Below, piece by piece: positions 21,408 to 58,531 of a DNA stretch of 64,000 bases. The DNA is from Arthrobacter koreensis (GTDB lineage Bacteria > Actinomycetota > Actinomycetes > Actinomycetales > Micrococcaceae), in contig NZ_WACG01000002.1 of NCBI RefSeq assembly GCF_009193255.1, forward strand, positions 124,001-188,000, read 5' to 3'. A program made the translations under genes and the position numbers. How positions within the stretch are numbered: the first letter of the stretch is position 1; each line of letters begins with the position of its first letter. The notes under the pieces are model-generated. The model was given only the letters and a program-made list of their open reading frames with translations. It made no database searches and was not told the origin of the DNA.

Positions 21408-22586
21408 ATGGACGCAGCACCCGCCTCCGAACCCCTTCCTCCGGCCCCCGGGTATGGCCGCAGTTCCGTAGCTGAGGTCCTCACCAGTGCCGCGGCTGTC
21501 CTGCAGGTCCCCGGCTTCACCAACACCCTGGAGCTTCCCGCAGCGAAGCGGGTCTGCGTGGTCATGGTGGACGGACTCGGCCGGAGCCTGCTGAAACAGC
21601 GCTCCGGACACGCTCCCTTCCTGCGGTCGCTGCAGGACGGCGGACGCACCCTCACCGCTGCCTTCCCCACCACGACGGCGGCGTCCCTCGCCTCGCTGGG
21701 GACCGGCCTCCCTCCGGGGCAGCACGGAATGGTTGGCTATGACGTGCTTGATCCCGCCCAGGACAAAGTGGTCAACATGCTGGGCAACTGGGACCCGGGT
21801 GTGGATCCACGCAGCTGGCAGCCGTTCCCGACCGTCCTTGAACAGGCATCCGGGCATCTGCCCGTCACGACGGTCAGCCTGCCGCGGTTTGCGGATTCAG
21901 CCATGACCCGCGCCGCCCTTCGCGGCGGCAGCCATGCGTCGGGCACCGGCATCCATGCCCGCGTAGAAGCCGCGCTGGGGGCGCTGGCCGCGGAAAAGCG
22001 CATGCTGATGTACTTCTACTTCAATGAGCTGGACAAGACCGGACACCGCTACGGTGCCCAGTCCCCGGAATGGGGAGGCGCGCTGGAGGAACTGGATTCG
22101 GCACTCAAGCGCTTCACCGCCAAGCTTCCCCCGGACACCCTTGTTCTCCTTACCGCGGACCACGGCATGGTGGACACCGCCCCGGAACACCGGATTGACT
22201 ACTCGGCGTACCCGGACCTAATCGAGGGTGTACGGCACACCGCCGGTGATCCGCGCATGGTGCAGCTGTACCTTGAAACGGATGCACCGGCCGGCACCCT
22301 GGAGCGGCTCACGGCCTCGTGGCAGCAGGCACTGGGCACCAGGGCATGGATCCTGACCCGGGACCAAGCCGTTGCGGCAGGCTTGTTTGGGCCCGTCCGC
22401 CCGGAAATCCTGCCCCGCATCGGCGACCTGCTGATTGCCGCACGTGAGCCGATTGCACTCTTTGATACCCGGCGGGCCAGCCCGTCGGCCCTGCAGATGG
22501 TGGGCCAGCACGGCTCGCTAACCCGTGCCGAGCGTGAAGTCCCGCTCCTGACGCTGGCCCGTCCGGCAAAGGGCGGGCGGAAGTAG
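21408..22586 (+). CDS. Alkaline phosphatase superfamily nucleotide phosphodiesterase
   Basis: This 392-residue enzyme has the metal-binding and nucleophile pattern of the nucleotide pyrophosphatase/phosphodiesterase branch: VMVDGLG (first Asp), FPTTTAASLASLGTG with a Thr nucleophile, the segment ELDKTGHRYG, and TADHGMVD with the Asp-His pair. No signal peptide is visible, so it is probably cytoplasmic. It hydrolyses phosphodiester or pyrophosphate bonds; the natural substrate cannot be told from sequence. The thymidine kinase gene begins 3 bases after its stop. Confidence 0.82.
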   Translation: MDAAPASEPLPPAPGYGRSSVAEVLTSAAAVLQVPGFTNTLELPAAKRVCVVMVDGLGRSLLKQRSGHAPFLRSLQDGGRTLTAAFPTTTAASLASLGTGLPPGQHGMVGYDVLDPAQDKVVNMLGNWDPGVDPRSWQPFPTVLEQASGHLPVTTVSLPRFADSAMTRAALRGGSHASGTGIHARVEAALGALAAEKRMLMYFYFNELDKTGHRYGAQSPEWGGALEELDSALKRFTAKLPPDTLVLLTADHGMVDTAPEHRIDYSAYPDLIEGVRHTAGDPRMVQLYLETDAPAGTLERLTASWQQALGTRAWILTRDQAVAAGLFGPVRPEILPRIGDLLIAAREPIALFDTRRASPSALQMVGQHGSLTRAEREVPLLTLARPAKGGRK

Positions 22587-22589
22587 GTT

Positions 22590-23306
22590 ATGGCTGAACT
22601 CGTGTTCTTCTCCGGGACCATGGACTGCGGCAAGTCCACTCTGGCGCTGCAGATGGACTACAACCACAGCGCCCGCGGACGCGGAGGAATTCTCTTCAGC
22701 CGCAATGACCGCGCGGGCAACGCGATGATCTCCAGCAGGCTGGGCCTGAAGACCCGCGCCGTTGAGGTCACGGACCACACCGACTTCTGGGACGAGGTGA
22801 TCCGGACCCGCGGTGCGGGGGACAGGGTGGATTACCTCATCTGCGACGAGGCGCAGTTCTACAGCGAGGAGCAGATTGAGCAGCTCGCACGGATCGTGGA
22901 CGAGATGGAAGTCGATGTATTCGCCTTCGGCATCGCCACGGACTTCCGTACGCGGCTGTTCCCGGGCTCGCAGCGGCTGATCGAACTGGCCGACCGAATC
23001 GAGGTCCTGCAGGTCCGCGCGCTCTGTTGGTGCGGGCGCCGCGCCACGCACAACGCGCGCACCGTGGACGGGGTCATGGTGGTCACCGGTGACCAGGTTG
23101 TGGTGGGCGACGTGGACAAGCGGCCGGCCGATCCCGGACCCGAAGCGCTCTTTGAGCCCGAGGAAGCCGGCGCGCCGCCGGTGGTGGGCTACGAAACGCT
23201 CTGCCGGCGGCATTACATGCGGCGCATGGGTGCGCAGCAGGCCGCACGGTACGCCGGAACCGGCGAAGATCCGGACATCTGCGCGGTTGGCACAGTCCGG
23301 GAATAG
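22590..23306 (+). CDS. tdk: Thymidine kinase (type II)
   Basis: This 238-residue enzyme phosphorylates thymidine to dTMP in the salvage pathway. It has a P-loop GTMDCGKST at residues 9-17, the CDEAQF catalytic/Mg segment near 85-90, and two zinc-binding stretches: CWCGRRATHNAR near 149 and CRRHY near 208. It is slightly longer than E. coli Tdk, with a short C-terminal extension. It lies 3 bases after the phosphodiesterase gene, so translation is probably coupled. Confidence 0.92.
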   Translation: MAELVFFSGTMDCGKSTLALQMDYNHSARGRGGILFSRNDRAGNAMISSRLGLKTRAVEVTDHTDFWDEVIRTRGAGDRVDYLICDEAQFYSEEQIEQLARIVDEMEVDVFAFGIATDFRTRLFPGSQRLIELADRIEVLQVRALCWCGRRATHNARTVDGVMVVTGDQVVVGDVDKRPADPGPEALFEPEEAGAPPVVGYETLCRRHYMRRMGAQQAARYAGTGEDPDICAVGTVRE

Positions 23307-23314
23307 GCTGCACC

Positions 23315-23341
23315 GGCGGTCCGCCATACTTCCGGACCGCC
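23315..23341. terminator. Hairpin between tdk and sepH
   Basis: GGCGGTCCG (23315-23323) pairs with CGGACCGCC (23333-23341) around a 9-base loop between two converging genes. There is no clear T-run, so it is a weaker candidate than others in the window. Confidence 0.6.
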
Positions 23342-53906: not shown

Positions 53907-54947
53907 CTAGACGGTTGTTGCGTCCTGCACTTCGCCAACCAGCTCTTCGATAATGTCCTCGAGGAACAGGACACCGGTGGTGTTGCCGTCTGCGTCGAAG
54001 ACCCGGGCCACGTGGGAGCCGGTGCGGCGCATAGTGTCCAGCGCATCTTCCAGCTCGCTGCCGCGGAACGCCGAAGCAAGGCGGCGGATGCGCTTAGCGG
54101 GAACCGGGGCGTTGAACTTCTCCGGAGTGTTCAGGTCCATGACGTCCTTCAGGTGAAGGTAGCCGGTGAGCCCGCCGTCGGCGTCGGCCAGGATGTAGCG
54201 GGAGTAGCCGTGGCTGCCCACCGCCTCCTGGATATCAGCCGGGGTCGGCTGGGCGGGAACCAGGACCATTTCTGCCAGCGGTACCTCGACGTCGGCAACG
54301 GTCTTTGAGGTGAACTCGAAGGCGTTGGTCAGGGCACCCGTGGCGTCGTCCAGCACGCCTTCGCGCGTGGACTGTTCCACAATGGTGGCCACTTCATCCA
54401 GCGTGTAGGTGCTGGTTGCCTCGTCCTTCGGCTCCACCTTGAACAGGCGCAGCACACCGTTGGCAATGGAGTTCAGCGTCCAGATGACGGGCTTGAAGAT
54501 CTTGGCCACGAGCACCAGCGGAGGAGCCAGGAGCAGTGCTGCCCGGGTGGGCACCGAGAAGGAGATGTTCTTGGGGATCATCTCGCCTGCAACAACGTGC
54601 AGGAAGGTGACCAGCAGCAGCGCCACGATGAAGGCCGTGACACTGATGGCCTCAGGGGTCAGCGGCGTATTGGCCAGCGGGATTTCCAGCAGGTGGTGGA
54701 TGGCAGGTTCGGACACGTTCAGGATCAGCAGCGAACAGACCGTAATACCCAGCTGGCTGGTGGCCAGCATCAGGGTGGCATGCTCCATTGCCCAGAGCGT
54801 GGTCTTGGCGGCCTTGCTGCCCTGTGCCGCCTTGGGCTCAATCTGGGAGCGGCGGGCGGAAATGACGGCGAATTCGGCACCCACGAAGAAGGCGTTCACG
54901 GCCAGCAGCACGAACAGCCAGATGATGCCGGGCAGGTACTCATTCAT
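53907..54947 (-). CDS. CNNM/CBS domain transporter-like protein (hemolysin C family), second gene
   Basis: This 346-residue protein has an N-terminal CNNM membrane domain of about four helices (first helix MNEYLPGIIWLFVLLAVNAFF) and a C-terminal CBS pair (about 200-340) ending LEDIIEELVGEV. CNNM proteins (CorC/MpfA type) are linked to magnesium efflux and metal tolerance; older annotations say hemolysin. It lacks the extra C-terminal CorC/HlyC domain that its upstream partner has. It overlaps that partner by 8 bases. Confidence 0.9.
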   Translation of the reverse strand: MNEYLPGIIWLFVLLAVNAFFVGAEFAVISARRSQIEPKAAQGSKAAKTTLWAMEHATLMLATSQLGITVCSLLILNVSEPAIHHLLEIPLANTPLTPEAISVTAFIVALLLVTFLHVVAGEMIPKNISFSVPTRAALLLAPPLVLVAKIFKPVIWTLNSIANGVLRLFKVEPKDEATSTYTLDEVATIVEQSTREGVLDDATGALTNAFEFTSKTVADVEVPLAEMVLVPAQPTPADIQEAVGSHGYSRYILADADGGLTGYLHLKDVMDLNTPEKFNAPVPAKRIRRLASAFRGSELEDALDTMRRTGSHVARVFDADGNTTGVLFLEDIIEELVGEVQDATTV

Positions 54948-56301
54948 GGATGGCTTCCTTCGTCAGGGTGTCGACCAGGCGGTCGTGCGCACTGCGCGGT
55001 GATTCGGACCCGGGGTTCGGCGTGAAGCGCAGCCGTTCAACGTGCGTTCCGAGGACGCGCTCGACGCGCAGGACGCCGTCGTCGACTTCCACTTCATCGC
55101 CCAGCTCGGGCATCCGGTCCAGGCTGTGCGTGACGAAGCCGGCCAGCGTCTCGTAGTCCTCGCCTTCCGGCACGGTGATTCCCGCGCGGTCCAGCAGCTC
55201 GTCCGGGCGCAGGGAGGCATCGAAGGTCACCGAGCGTCCGGTGCGGACGACGCCGACGCGCGCGCGGTCGTGTTCGTCCTCCAGCTCGCCGACGATCTCC
55301 TCCACGAGGTCCTCCAGGGTGACGACGCCGGCGGTGCCGCCGTGTTCATCGGTCACCACGGCGATCTGCAGCCCCTGGCTGCGCAGGATGCCCAGCAGGG
55401 AGTCCACCCCCATGGATTCGGGAACGCGCAGCGGCGGAACCATCACGTCTGCCGCCGTTGTGGTGGCGCGTGCCTCCAGGGGCAGCGCGAAAGCCTGCTT
55501 CACGTGCAGCACACCAAGGATGTCATCCGAATCCCGGCCCAGGACCGGGAAACGGGAGTATCCGGTGTTCACGGCCGTGGCAATGATGTCCTCTGCCGTG
55601 TCCGTGGCCTGGACGCCGACCATGCGCACGCGCGGAGTCATGACGTCCTCGGCGGTGTGGTCGGTGAAGCGCAGCGTGCGGTGCAGCAGCTCTGCGTGGT
55701 CCTGGTCCAGGACGCCTTCAAGGGCCGACCGCCGGACCAGGAAGCTGAGCTCCTCGGCGCTGCGGGCGCCGGAGAGCTCTTCCTTCGGTTCGATGCCGAA
55801 GGAACGGATGACCTTGTTGGCTGTGTTGTTGCAGACGAGGATGACCGGTTTGAAGACAGTGGTAAACAGGGCCTGGAACGGAACAACCACCTTGGCGGTT
55901 GCCTTGGGCAGCGCCAGGGCAAAGTTCTTCGGCACCAGTTCGCCAATGATCATTGACAGCAGGGTGGCGACGGCGATGGCAATCACTGCGCCGGTGCCGC
56001 CGACAACTGCCTCGGGTACGCCGGCGCCGAGCAGCGGTCCGCGCAGGAGCGCGCTGATGGCCGGCTCAAAGGTGTAACCGGAGAGCAGGGTGGTGAGGGT
56101 GATGCCCAGCTGGGCACCGGAAAGATGGGTCGAGGTGATCTTCAGGGCCTTGATCGTGGGACCAAGACGCTTTTCCCCGGCGGCCTGTCGGGCCTCCAGG
56201 TCGCTGCGGTCCAGGTTGACCAGGGCGAATTCAGAAGCCACAAAGAGGCCGGTACCGACGGTCAGCAGGAGGCCGACGCCGATCATGAGCCATTCATACA
56301 T
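54940..56301 (-). CDS. CNNM/CBS/CorC domain transporter-like protein (hemolysin C family), first gene
   Basis: This 453-residue protein has a CNNM membrane domain (about 1-200, with LVNLDRSDLEARQAAGEKR after the first helix), a CBS pair (about 215-340, with GVVTLEDLVEEIVGE) and a C-terminal CorC/HlyC domain (about 355-430). It probably works with the shorter partner as a heterodimeric magnesium or divalent-ion exporter. The ribosome binding site AGGAGG at 56310-56315 is the 3' arm of a hairpin, so translation is probably controlled. Confidence 0.9.
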   Translation of the reverse strand: MYEWLMIGVGLLLTVGTGLFVASEFALVNLDRSDLEARQAAGEKRLGPTIKALKITSTHLSGAQLGITLTTLLSGYTFEPAISALLRGPLLGAGVPEAVVGGTGAVIAIAVATLLSMIIGELVPKNFALALPKATAKVVVPFQALFTTVFKPVILVCNNTANKVIRSFGIEPKEELSGARSAEELSFLVRRSALEGVLDQDHAELLHRTLRFTDHTAEDVMTPRVRMVGVQATDTAEDIIATAVNTGYSRFPVLGRDSDDILGVLHVKQAFALPLEARATTTAADVMVPPLRVPESMGVDSLLGILRSQGLQIAVVTDEHGGTAGVVTLEDLVEEIVGELEDEHDRARVGVVRTGRSVTFDASLRPDELLDRAGITVPEGEDYETLAGFVTHSLDRMPELGDEVEVDDGVLRVERVLGTHVERLRFTPNPGSESPRSAHDRLVDTLTKEAIHE

Positions 56302-56306
56302 GGGGC

Positions 56307-56346
56307 TGCCCTCCTAGAACCAAGTCGTCTGGCACACAGGAGGGCA
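56307..56346 (-). promoter_or_regulatory. Hairpin sequestering the Shine-Dalgarno of the CNNM operon
   Basis: On the minus strand TGCCCTCCT (56346-56338) pairs with AGGAGGGCA (56315-56307) around a 22-base loop. The 3' arm contains the whole Shine-Dalgarno AGGAGG, 8 bases before the ATG at 56301. This is the typical layout of a translational on/off switch in a leader. Confidence 0.65.
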
Positions 56347-56392
56347 TGGGTTTATGAGAAGGATCGTCCATAGTAGCCAAGATCTTACGGAC

Positions 56393-56534: not shown

Positions 56535-57659
56535 ATGGACACCACAGCAGTAATCCTCGGCGGCGGATATGCCGGCGTCATGGCAGCCAACCGTCTGGCC
56601 GGGCACGGCATCAGGGTGCGCCTGGCTACTCCCGAGCCGCGCTTCACCGAGCGGATCCGACTGCACGAGTTCGCTGCAGGCATCAGGGCCGACGCGACGG
56701 TGTCCTTCAGCAGCCTGCTGCACCCGGACGTGGAACTAATCCGGGGAACGGCCGTGAAGATCGATGCCGGAGAGCACCGGGTCCAGCTCTCCGGCGGAAC
56801 TCACCTGGACTACGACTGGCTCGTCTACGCCGTGGGCAGCGGCAGCAGTTCCGTCCCTGCGGGAATACTGGCACCCGACCGGCTGGACGGGGCCGGAGCT
56901 GCGCGGCAGCGGCTCAGCACCCTGCAGCCGGGAGACGCCGTCGCAGTGGTGGGCGGCGGCCTGACTGCTGTCGAAACTGCCGCCGAAACGGCGCGGGCAC
57001 ATCCGGGGAATCCGGTGACGCTTTATGCCGCCGGACTGGTGGTGCCGCACTTTTCCGCAGGGGCGCGCGCGGGAGTGCTGCGCAGCCTGCAGCGGGCGGG
57101 AATTGCGGTTCGGCAGCAGGCTGTGAAGGAAGGTAACGTCCCGGCTGCCGCGGCGGTCCTGTGGTGCACCGGATTCGGAGTCCCCGACCTCGCAGCGCGC
57201 AGCGGGCTGCCCGTCGACTCCGCGGGCCGGCTCACGGTGGATTCGTCGCTGCGCGTTCCGGGACACGGGCGGATCTTCGGTGCCGGCGACGCAGCCGTCA
57301 TCACGGCTCCCGGCTACGGCTACCTTCCGCAGACCTGTGCCACAGCGATGCCGATGGGTGCCGAAGCGGCATCGAACATCCTGCGGTCGCGTGCCGGGGC
57401 GCCGCTTCCGGCGCACAGCAGCGGCTTCCTGGGGCAGTGCGTCTCGCTCGGCCGGTCCGACGGTGCTGTCCAGCTGCTCCATGCCGGGTACACGCCGCGG
57501 CGGATCCACCTTCACGGAAAAGCCGCTGCGATGCTAAAAGAAGTACTGTGCCGCATGACACTACGGTGGATCCGCGGCGAAGCCAGGCGAAGCGGAGGAT
57601 ACACATGGCCGGCGGGCCCGCGGATGAAGCCGGTATCACCGGTGATGCAGCAGGTATGA
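56535..57659 (+). CDS. FAD-dependent oxidoreductase (NDH-2-like)
   Basis: This 374-residue flavoprotein has an N-terminal FAD loop VILGGGYAGVMAANRL (residues 6-21), a second NAD(P)-binding loop VAVVGGGLTAVETAAETA (about 136-153), and a C-terminal FAD contact RIFGAGDAAVI. Its organisation is that of the type II NADH dehydrogenase/pyridine nucleotide-disulfide family. AGGAGG (56522-56527) lies 7 bases before the ATG. It overlaps the downstream ECF41 sigma gene. FAD-dependent oxidoreductases are typical partners of ECF41 sigma factors and are their likely main target. Confidence 0.88.
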   Translation: MDTTAVILGGGYAGVMAANRLAGHGIRVRLATPEPRFTERIRLHEFAAGIRADATVSFSSLLHPDVELIRGTAVKIDAGEHRVQLSGGTHLDYDWLVYAVGSGSSSVPAGILAPDRLDGAGAARQRLSTLQPGDAVAVVGGGLTAVETAAETARAHPGNPVTLYAAGLVVPHFSAGARAGVLRSLQRAGIAVRQQAVKEGNVPAAAAVLWCTGFGVPDLAARSGLPVDSAGRLTVDSSLRVPGHGRIFGAGDAAVITAPGYGYLPQTCATAMPMGAEAASNILRSRAGAPLPAHSSGFLGQCVSLGRSDGAVQLLHAGYTPRRIHLHGKAAAMLKEVLCRMTLRWIRGEARRSGGYTWPAGPRMKPVSPVMQQV

Positions 57660-58531
57660 GCAAGGAGCGGGAACGAGAGTTCCTGGCCCACCGCCGGCTG
57701 GTCTTCACCATTGCCTACGACGTGACCGGTTCCGTCTCCGACGCCGAGGATGTGGTGCAGGAAACCTGGCTGCGGTACTCAGCGGCTAGCGGCGTGCCGC
57801 GGAACCCGCGGGCATACCTGGCCAGGATTGCGTCCCGGCAGGCGCTGAACGCCGTCCGTGCGGCATCCCGGCGGCGGGAAGAGTATCCGGGGGAGTGGCT
57901 GCCGGAACCGCTGCCTACCGGCCAGGATGCGCCCGGGCCCTACGACCCGGAGGCCTCGGCGCTGACCGGAGCCGATGTGTCCACCGCAATGCTGGTACTG
58001 ATGCAGCAATTGGGCGGGCCGGAACGGGTGGCCCTGGTGCTCCGGGACGTTTTTGGCTTCCGCTACGCCGAAATAGCGGAGGTGCTCGAATCCTCCCAGG
58101 CGTCCGTCCGCCAGACGGTACACCGGGCACGGGAAAGAGTGCGGTCCGGTGTGCCGCGGAACCCGCCGGACAAGGCAGAGCACCGAGCCGCCGTCGAACG
58201 TTTCCTGCAGGCTGCGCTGACGGGGCAGATCCAGGCGCTGCTGGAGGTCCTCGCACCGGACGTCGTGCTGCACTCCGACGGCGGCGGCATAGTCAGCGCC
58301 GCCCGCCGGCCGGTCTACGGTCAGGAGAAGGTTGCCGCCCTGCTGCTCGGGCTGGCTGCCAAATTCGGTGCGGATGCGGCCCCGGAGTTCGTCGAGCTGA
58401 ACGGGCTGCCGGCCGTGGCCTTCCGCGAGGACGGTACAGTAACCACCGTCTTCCAGCTGGAACGGCAGGACGGTCTGGTGACCGGGGTTTATGCCATGCG
58501 GAATCCCGACAAGCTCCTGCGCCTGCAGTAG
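57605..58531 (+). CDS. ECF41-family sigma factor (SigJ-like)
   Basis: This 308-residue sigma factor has region 2 (AHRRLVFTIAYDVTGSVSDAEDVVQETWLR) and region 4 (FGFRYAEIAEVLESSQASVRQTVHRARER). A C-terminal SnoaL-like extension of about 100 residues carries the ECF41 hallmarks: WLPEPL in the linker, DGGG, and the end motif NPDKL. In this family the extension replaces an anti-sigma factor and controls activity. Two starts are possible: ATG 57605 with an ideal GGAGG (57594-57598), chosen here, or ATG 57656, which overlaps the oxidoreductase stop as ATGA. Either way the two genes overlap. Confidence 0.9.
   Translation: MAGGPADEAGITGDAAGMSKEREREFLAHRRLVFTIAYDVTGSVSDAEDVVQETWLRYSAASGVPRNPRAYLARIASRQALNAVRAASRRREEYPGEWLPEPLPTGQDAPGPYDPEASALTGADVSTAMLVLMQQLGGPERVALVLRDVFGFRYAEIAEVLESSQASVRQTVHRARERVRSGVPRNPPDKAEHRAAVERFLQAALTGQIQALLEVLAPDVVLHSDGGGIVSAARRPVYGQEKVAALLLGLAAKFGADAAPEFVELNGLPAVAFREDGTVTTVFQLERQDGLVTGVYAMRNPDKLLRLQ

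Follow-up and report, generated by a model that had tools for sequence, protein, structure and literature searches.

A leader-peptide switch proposed for an actinobacterial CNNM operon: translational coupling through a covarying Shine-Dalgarno hairpin and possible magnesium sensing

Translation of a two-gene CNNM operon in Arthrobacter koreensis appears to be tied to that of a short upstream reading frame (uORF), which crosses the hairpin-bound Shine-Dalgarno sequence (SD) of the first CNNM gene before stopping on the CNNM start. In the window, that is, the whole stretch of 64,000 nucleotides analysed here, the 5' arm of the hairpin coincides with uORF codons 9-12 and the SD with codons 20-21. 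The coupling of the uORF to CNNM is well supported by comparison with related sequences, and the leader may in addition sense Mg2+; in the complete reading, a leader-peptide switch that combines translational coupling with acidic/proline Mg2+ sensing of the CNNM operon, we place middling confidence. The elements of this arrangement are the following:

53907-54947, minus strand: CNNM gene 2, 346 aa; its start shares 8 nt with the end of gene 1
54940-56301, minus strand: CNNM gene 1, 453 aa, with Pfam PF01595 (CNNM), PF00571 (CBS) and PF03471 (CorC_HlyC) above cut-off
56294-56296, minus strand: uORF stop TGA, just within the CNNM gene (ATG-TA-TGA); stop position conserved in relatives
56294-56371, minus strand: leader uORF of 25 codons plus TGA, MDDPSHKPMPSCVPDDLVLGGQPHV, without an evident SD of its own, perhaps leaderless
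56307-56316, minus strand: 3' arm TAGGAGGGCA, which includes the CNNM SD GGAGGG (56309-56314); assigned from the sequence and from covariation with the 5' arm
56337-56346, minus strand: 5' (anti-SD) arm TGCCCTCCTG, within uORF codons 9-12
56360-56368, minus strand: uORF codons 2-4 (Asp-Asp-Pro), a putative ribosome-destabilizing motif in the conserved acidic/proline start
56382-56387, minus strand: predicted -10 element TAAGAT, ending 10 nt upstream of the uORF ATG

The CNNM operon and its neighbours

By its domains (CNNM, CBS and CorC_HlyC), the product of the first gene belongs to the CNNM/CorB transporters; its best sequence matches among solved structures are 7m1t/7m1u, there named hemolysin with CBS domains. 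The CNNM family also matches the polyamine exporter PaeA, a distant relative, far below cut-off. The operon likely encodes a putative Mg2+ exporter of the CorB/MpfA type, the substrate of which could be another cation; CorB homologues and MpfA are cited as efflux or tolerance factors in PMC12421838. The overlap between CNNM 1 and CNNM 2 (54940-54947) measures 8 nt, equal to that between the uORF and CNNM 1, and the whole operon therefore looks translationally chained. Divergently from it, on the plus strand (56535-58531), lie a pyridine nucleotide-disulphide oxidoreductase and a protein with sigma-70 regions 2 and 4 that has a weak SnoaL_2 match below cut-off; we take the latter to resemble those ECF sigma factors that carry a SnoaL-like domain at the C-terminus.

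The hairpin over the CNNM Shine-Dalgarno sequence

An earlier note on this DNA had described a hairpin with a 22-base loop sequestering the SD at 56307-56346, and on the minus strand that description is exact: nine perfect pairs (AGGAGGGCA with TGCCCTCCT) and a tenth, G-U, pair enclose a 22-nt loop, the order ATGCCCTCCTG...CTAGGAGGGCAGCCCC-ATG is as given there, and GGAGGG lies 13 to 8 nt upstream of the CNNM ATG at 56301. The uORF, which takes in the 5' arm and runs to the CNNM start, had gone unmentioned; the lesson is that an SD hairpin should be read jointly with any frame that crosses it.

By itself, the hairpin is uncommon, not extraordinary. The local fold is of only moderate stability (z = -1.90, a level equalled or bettered by 11 of 200 shuffles), and the helix score, matched by one in 200 shuffles of the window leader, is attained at two of the 20 SD-bearing gene starts called in the window, those of CNNM and of gene 22518-23327. 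The start of the latter gene (minus strand) carries over its SD region a 13-pair helix with several G-U pairs that scores above the CNNM helix. When the helix of each of 95 related leaders was set against shuffles of its own sequence, just 25 had no more than 10 of 200 shuffles as good; a single hairpin is therefore weak evidence, and covariation was relied on instead.

Covariation of the two arms in relatives

Leaders were collected from the regions upstream of close CNNM orthologs. One source was the genus, where 28 of 29 searched genomes matched, the window's own among them; the other was a set of 80 named contigs that ranked best in a longer list. Some genomes are present in both sets. Among these best 80 contigs are members of Arthrobacter, Pseudarthrobacter, Paenarthrobacter, Paeniglutamicibacter and Cryobacterium as well as of Frigoribacterium, Herbiconiux, Sanguibacter, Micromonospora and Glycomyces. 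A frame with the search pattern ATG-GA(C/T/A)-(GA/CC), sought 30-125 nt upstream of the CNNM start, is present at 107 of 108 loci, L076 being the exception; merging identical leaders left 95 distinct ones.

The best SD helix starts at uORF nt 25-29 (0-based) in 81 of the 95, and 37 distinct arm pairs occur, such as TGCCCTCC/GGAGGGCA in the window's clade, GCCCCTC/GAGGGGC in many Arthrobacter relatives, GCTCCCTG/CAGGGAGC in some Cryobacterium and GCTCACCTCG/CGAGGTGAGC in two Glycomyces. Over all 95 leaders, 89.5% of the cells are paired against 83.6% after shuffling, and 45 cells carry two-sided changes against 16.2 +/- 3.2 after shuffling (none of 500 shuffles as high) and 5-15 in slid controls. 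Two of the five measures are weaker on this full set: two-sided changes affect six of seven pairs (22 of 500 shuffles as high), and further pair types show no clear excess (66 of 500 as high). A hand-picked set of 39 leaders, with 92.7% of cells paired, gives 26 two-sided cells against 6.9 +/- 2.1, and RNAalifold predicts six of the seven pairs on it unprompted; it included none of the 14 leaders that misfit. Covariation over all 95 is weaker than this count, yet it runs in the same direction and is clear.

Exchanging arms between leaders gives a comparable picture. Among 20 hand-picked clade representatives, native pairs give -398.8 kcal/mol against -332.4 +/- 13.2 kcal/mol for swapped ones, with none of 20000 permutations as strong, although two representatives, both Cryobacterium, pair worse than most swaps; over all 95 leaders, the native pair is better than the mean swap in 72 and within the best 5% in only 13. 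The SD helix lies away from its usual place in 14 of the 95 leaders, 11 of them Cryobacterium, and five of these misfits have it at nt 20, where a uORF shortened by three codons would be expected to place it.

That the hairpin is an accident of G+C-rich DNA beside an unrelated start is scarcely credible. The moderate z-score and the higher-scoring helix at one other start of 20 in the window speak for it; against this, the arms covary beyond both shuffled and slid controls on the full set, the clade swap test favours the native pairs and the place of the 5' arm is fixed in 81 of 95 leaders. The hairpin stands above chance because its arms covary in relatives. The earlier note had named arms not conserved as pairs as part of what would refute it, and on this computable half of its test the arms do covary as pairs.

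The leader is a conserved reading frame

The frame of the uORF is open as far as the CNNM start in 91 of the 95 leaders, as opposed to 23 and 14 for the other two frames. It ends between -5 and +13 nt from the CNNM start in 92 leaders, at +8 in 61 and at +4 in 17; in L034, L107 and L082 the frame is broken or displaced and looks frameshifted, and no uORF was found for L076. Sixteen distinct leader lengths occur, only one of which, that of L107, is a multiple of three.

Coding constraint was gauged on 80 of the 95 rows, 15 having been dropped for indels (the window's clade among them), and codons 2-3 were omitted because the search pattern partly fixes them. Summed entropy at codon positions 1, 2 and 3 is 2.66, 2.96 and 7.02 bits over codons 4-9, against 7.24, 7.55 and 7.87 bits over codons 14-18; variation in the former stretch is concentrated at third positions, unlike in the latter. 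The commonest peptide is MDDPPSH(M/K)PxPL. Prolines 4, 5 and 9 are present in 74, 78 and 77 of the 80 rows, the window uORF having only one proline at positions 4-5, and in 69 leaders selected by peptide Ser 6 is encoded by TCA, TCG, TCT, TCC or AGT. By these comparisons of sequence, the leader is coding and conserved as a protein. Third positions of codons 2-8 in the same 69 leaders are rather A/T-rich (GC3 0.41 versus 0.69 further on), perhaps so that the 5' end stays slow or free of structure.

A TAnnnT hexamer ends 5-11 nt, mostly 9-10 nt, before the uORF ATG in 91 of the 95 distinct leaders, and no SD is seen upstream of the window uORF. Set against the usual spacing between a -10 element and the transcription start, the distance from the -10-like box to the ATG suggests that the uORF is leaderless or nearly so.

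The earlier note had taken the region for an ion-, temperature- or protein-controlled leader. Control linked to divalent ions stays plausible; a free-standing non-coding leader is not supported, as the region is a conserved reading frame, and temperature control fares no better, the modelled helix being closed throughout 15-42 C. A non-coding leader governed by a ligand, by temperature or by a protein would account for the SD of a metal-transporter operon being bound in a hairpin that covaries, and we regard it as very unlikely given that the region is conserved as a protein. It is also disfavoured by Rfam, which returned no match at gathering score in the 64 kb and which between 56200 and 56450 gave, at E up to 10, just three matches, all at E >= 1 and none convincing. 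In the energy model, the unpaired probability of the SD is 0.00 at 15, 20, 25, 30, 37 and 42 C, which makes an RNA thermometer unlikely.

Coupling of the leader to CNNM translation

The layout is that of a coupling leader: in 92 of 95 leaders the stop of the uORF overlaps the start that follows or lies beside it, and the SD is sequestered by a structure that overlaps the uORF (a covarying helix across the 95 leaders, with the 5' arm within the uORF in the window). A ribosome completing the uORF would open the hairpin and terminate at the CNNM start. Either this ribosome or one behind it would then initiate CNNM 1, CNNM 2 following by way of the 8-nt overlap. Were ribosomes not to get through, the hairpin would close and expression of the operon would be low.

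Modelled ribosomes on the leader give the following picture. With the P-site at codons 1-4, the SD stays fully paired, so that a ribosome dropping off there would leave the gate shut. With the P-site at codons 5-13, the 5' arm is masked and the SD is nevertheless still mostly paired (unpaired 0.16-0.17). From codon 15 onwards, the ribosome covers the SD itself; the opening computed there is trivial and built into the model. Since the fold model does not show the SD becoming free for use, termination followed by re-initiation would seem the better account than simple masking.

Attenuation of the stalling type calls for that very masking: a ribosome arrested at the uORF prolines (D-P-P, H-x-P-x-P), for instance by shortage of EF-P or another factor, would cover the 5' arm and free the SD. 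The conservation of prolines 4, 5 and 9 is in keeping with it, as is the modelled position of a ribosome at codons 5-13 on the arm. We consider it improbable: in the model the SD remains mostly paired when the arm is masked, a stall would not require the uORF stop to overlap the CNNM start so tightly, and the window uORF, besides its single proline at positions 4-5, is without the RAPP/RGPP motif that PMC12992588 describes for arrest peptides.

Plain translational coupling, in which uORF and hairpin merely make CNNM expression follow the loading of ribosomes onto the leader, with no special effect of the peptide sequence, is a possibility of some substance, though we doubt that it is the full account. 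All the structural evidence for coupling fits it, and so do the many distant CNNM genes that have stop-overlapping uORFs with quite different peptides. It has no need for MDDPPSH, however, and codons 4-9 are far more constrained in amino acids than codons 14-18, including at residues outside the hairpin arm.

The acidic/proline start and magnesium

At least two acidic residues in positions 2-5 together with a proline in positions 2-6, the N-terminus looked for in a leader subject to intrinsic ribosome destabilization (IRD), occur in 94 of the 95 leaders, a count that is biased because the search pattern had itself prescribed codon 2 and, in part, codon 3. In the window, the same rule is satisfied by 10 of 1384 ATG frames and by 7 of 280 candidate starts of long ORFs; the motif is therefore not very rare. 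Two Asp and one Pro make a mild destabilizing motif, and di-acidic residues alone are insufficient according to PMC11282234. The same source describes low Mg2+ as favouring ribosome drop-off at the EPDP of MgtL, and IRD in Escherichia coli is suppressed by high Mg2+ according to PMC9718836.

Combined with the coupling described above, such a start could make the leader a Mg2+ sensor. At low Mg2+, it would destabilize early ribosomes by IRD and cause drop-off at codons 2-4, before the 5' arm; at high Mg2+, ribosomes would pass and the operon would be ON. This sign fits an exporter, as CNNM is taken to be, and the window operon may respond to Mg2+. PMC12421838 reports that corC and mgpA are induced at high Mg2+, proposes an IRD sequence in CorC as a possible cause and describes the mechanisms governing the two genes as still unclear.

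Comparison with known leaders

MgtL, the leader of mgtA in E. coli and Salmonella, is likewise a short leader before a Mg2+ transporter gene, and has acidic residues and prolines among positions 2-5 (MEPDP, against MDDP/MDDPP here and MDPD in one Cryobacterium group), and the drop-off at low Mg2+ known for it is what is proposed for the CNNM leader. In contrast, MgtL acts through Rho-dependent termination, switching on an importer when Mg2+ is low (PMC11282234), while the read-out of the CNNM leader would be translation initiation and its sign the opposite. The mgtL stop does not overlap mgtA, and comparison by eye with the E. coli sequence reveals no evident homology; the gene being different and only the acidic/proline start being alike by eye, the CNNM leader is not placed in the MgtL family. 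The MgtQ uORF of Salmonella mgtB also has early acidic residues that reduce its own translation, thereby raising mgtB, and its stem-loops govern how the following gene is translated, as reported in PMC8092293. It differs in lying between two genes and in using alternative stem-loops; abortion there promotes mgtB, whereas abortion here should repress CNNM.

YoaL, the leader of yoaE/mgpA in E. coli and Salmonella, resembles the CNNM uORF in overlapping the start of a CorC-domain gene and in being needed for its full translation (loss of the YoaL start lowers translation of MgpA), and high Mg2+ raises mgpA when the pH is neutral or alkaline, all according to PMC12421838. It differs in that E. coli YoaL has 52 residues, beginning MDRHRRHFS, and in that mgpA encodes a TerC-CorC protein, not a CNNM one. 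As a candidate relative of the CNNM uORF, YoaL was rejected, there being no resemblance to MDDPPSH by eye.

The M-box (ykoK) riboswitch likewise provides Mg2+-linked control through an mRNA leader, and a mycobacterial M-box controls a small upstream ORF (PMC12810186); unlike that system, the window has no M-box at the Rfam threshold, and the conserved element is the uORF itself. The ilvB-II motif, or uORF of Corynebacterium ilvBNC, is another conserved actinobacterial uORF reported to regulate the next operon (PMC10272879), in this case a different one. Among the top-listed papers of searches in an open-access library, none reported the present CNNM leader.

Distribution beyond close relatives

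A CNNM match at E <= 1e-110 is present in 123 of 218 sampled genomes of the order. In 15 leaders from a further family, f4 (L130-L144), where frames were sought by stop overlap instead of by peptide, the peptide starts with MDDPP (13) or MDHPP (2); the best SD helices score 9.0-14.0 at varied places, which is within the range of the better control starts, and the same hairpin is therefore not claimed for this family.

Forty more upstream regions (L175-L214) were inspected, including five that precede paralogs in the window's own genome and its family. In 25 of the 40, an ATG uORF of 6-70 codons has a stop that overlaps a plausible CNNM start, as read by eye, and in the more distant families the peptides diverge (MDGSQS, MKDSDDAGCSS, MGEPPS). 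Start/stop overlaps are common in compact genomes; for this reason, and because the peptides differ, these distant overlaps are only suggestive. Related motifs appear in some distant frames, such as ADDPPPSRPG (L184) and DHPPPG (L212). Before the second pair of CNNM genes, both in the window's genome and in relatives (L210, L212, L213, L214), the motifs AEPPP, ADHPPPG and DQPPPG are seen, that of L213 having been read by eye from the DNA; acidic/polyproline frames before paralogous CNNM genes are perhaps a second kind of leader. A separate family, f25 (L181, L185, L187, L197, L198), has a well conserved 25-codon uORF, for example MKDSDDAGCSSGRPTRAEAPAGVDR, with its own SD-like GGAAGG and an end that forms an ATGA or GTGA overlap with the CNNM gene.

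A leader serving many genes of its own genome was considered and rejected: the pattern ATGGAYGAYCCNNCN has four matches there, namely the window uORF, the opening of a 250-codon frame and frames of 50 and 38 codons. Across the class, ATGGAYGAYCCNCCNNNNCAY matched in 7 of 394 genomes, two of the matches being CNNM leaders, both in the window's family, and the other five looking on reading like chance; a reversed control pattern had one match each in four genomes. The exact MDDPPxH motif is therefore not class-wide. Plasmid records held no match to the 181-base leader region.

Significance

It is tentatively suggested, at the broadest, that Actinobacteria use the ribosome as a gauge of high Mg2+ for a CNNM exporter, in that full translation of a leaderless MDDPP mini-gene would break the hairpin and so deliver ribosomes to the gene for the exporter. 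Sensing of Mg2+ by leader peptides whose early elongation is unstable is already known; what would be new here is another phylum, an exporter-type gene, a read-out by translational coupling and the opposite sign. If this is true, acidic/proline variants such as ADDPPPSRPG and DHPPPG before distant CNNM genes would point to an ancient regulatory principle of the CNNM family. How bacterial Mg2+ export is turned on is poorly understood, and a conserved leader whose motif is explicit and mutable and whose hairpin covaries opens the question to direct tests in harmless soil bacteria. Sensing by ribosome destabilization, described in the papers cited for enterobacterial importers, would then extend to Actinobacteria and to exporter-type genes.
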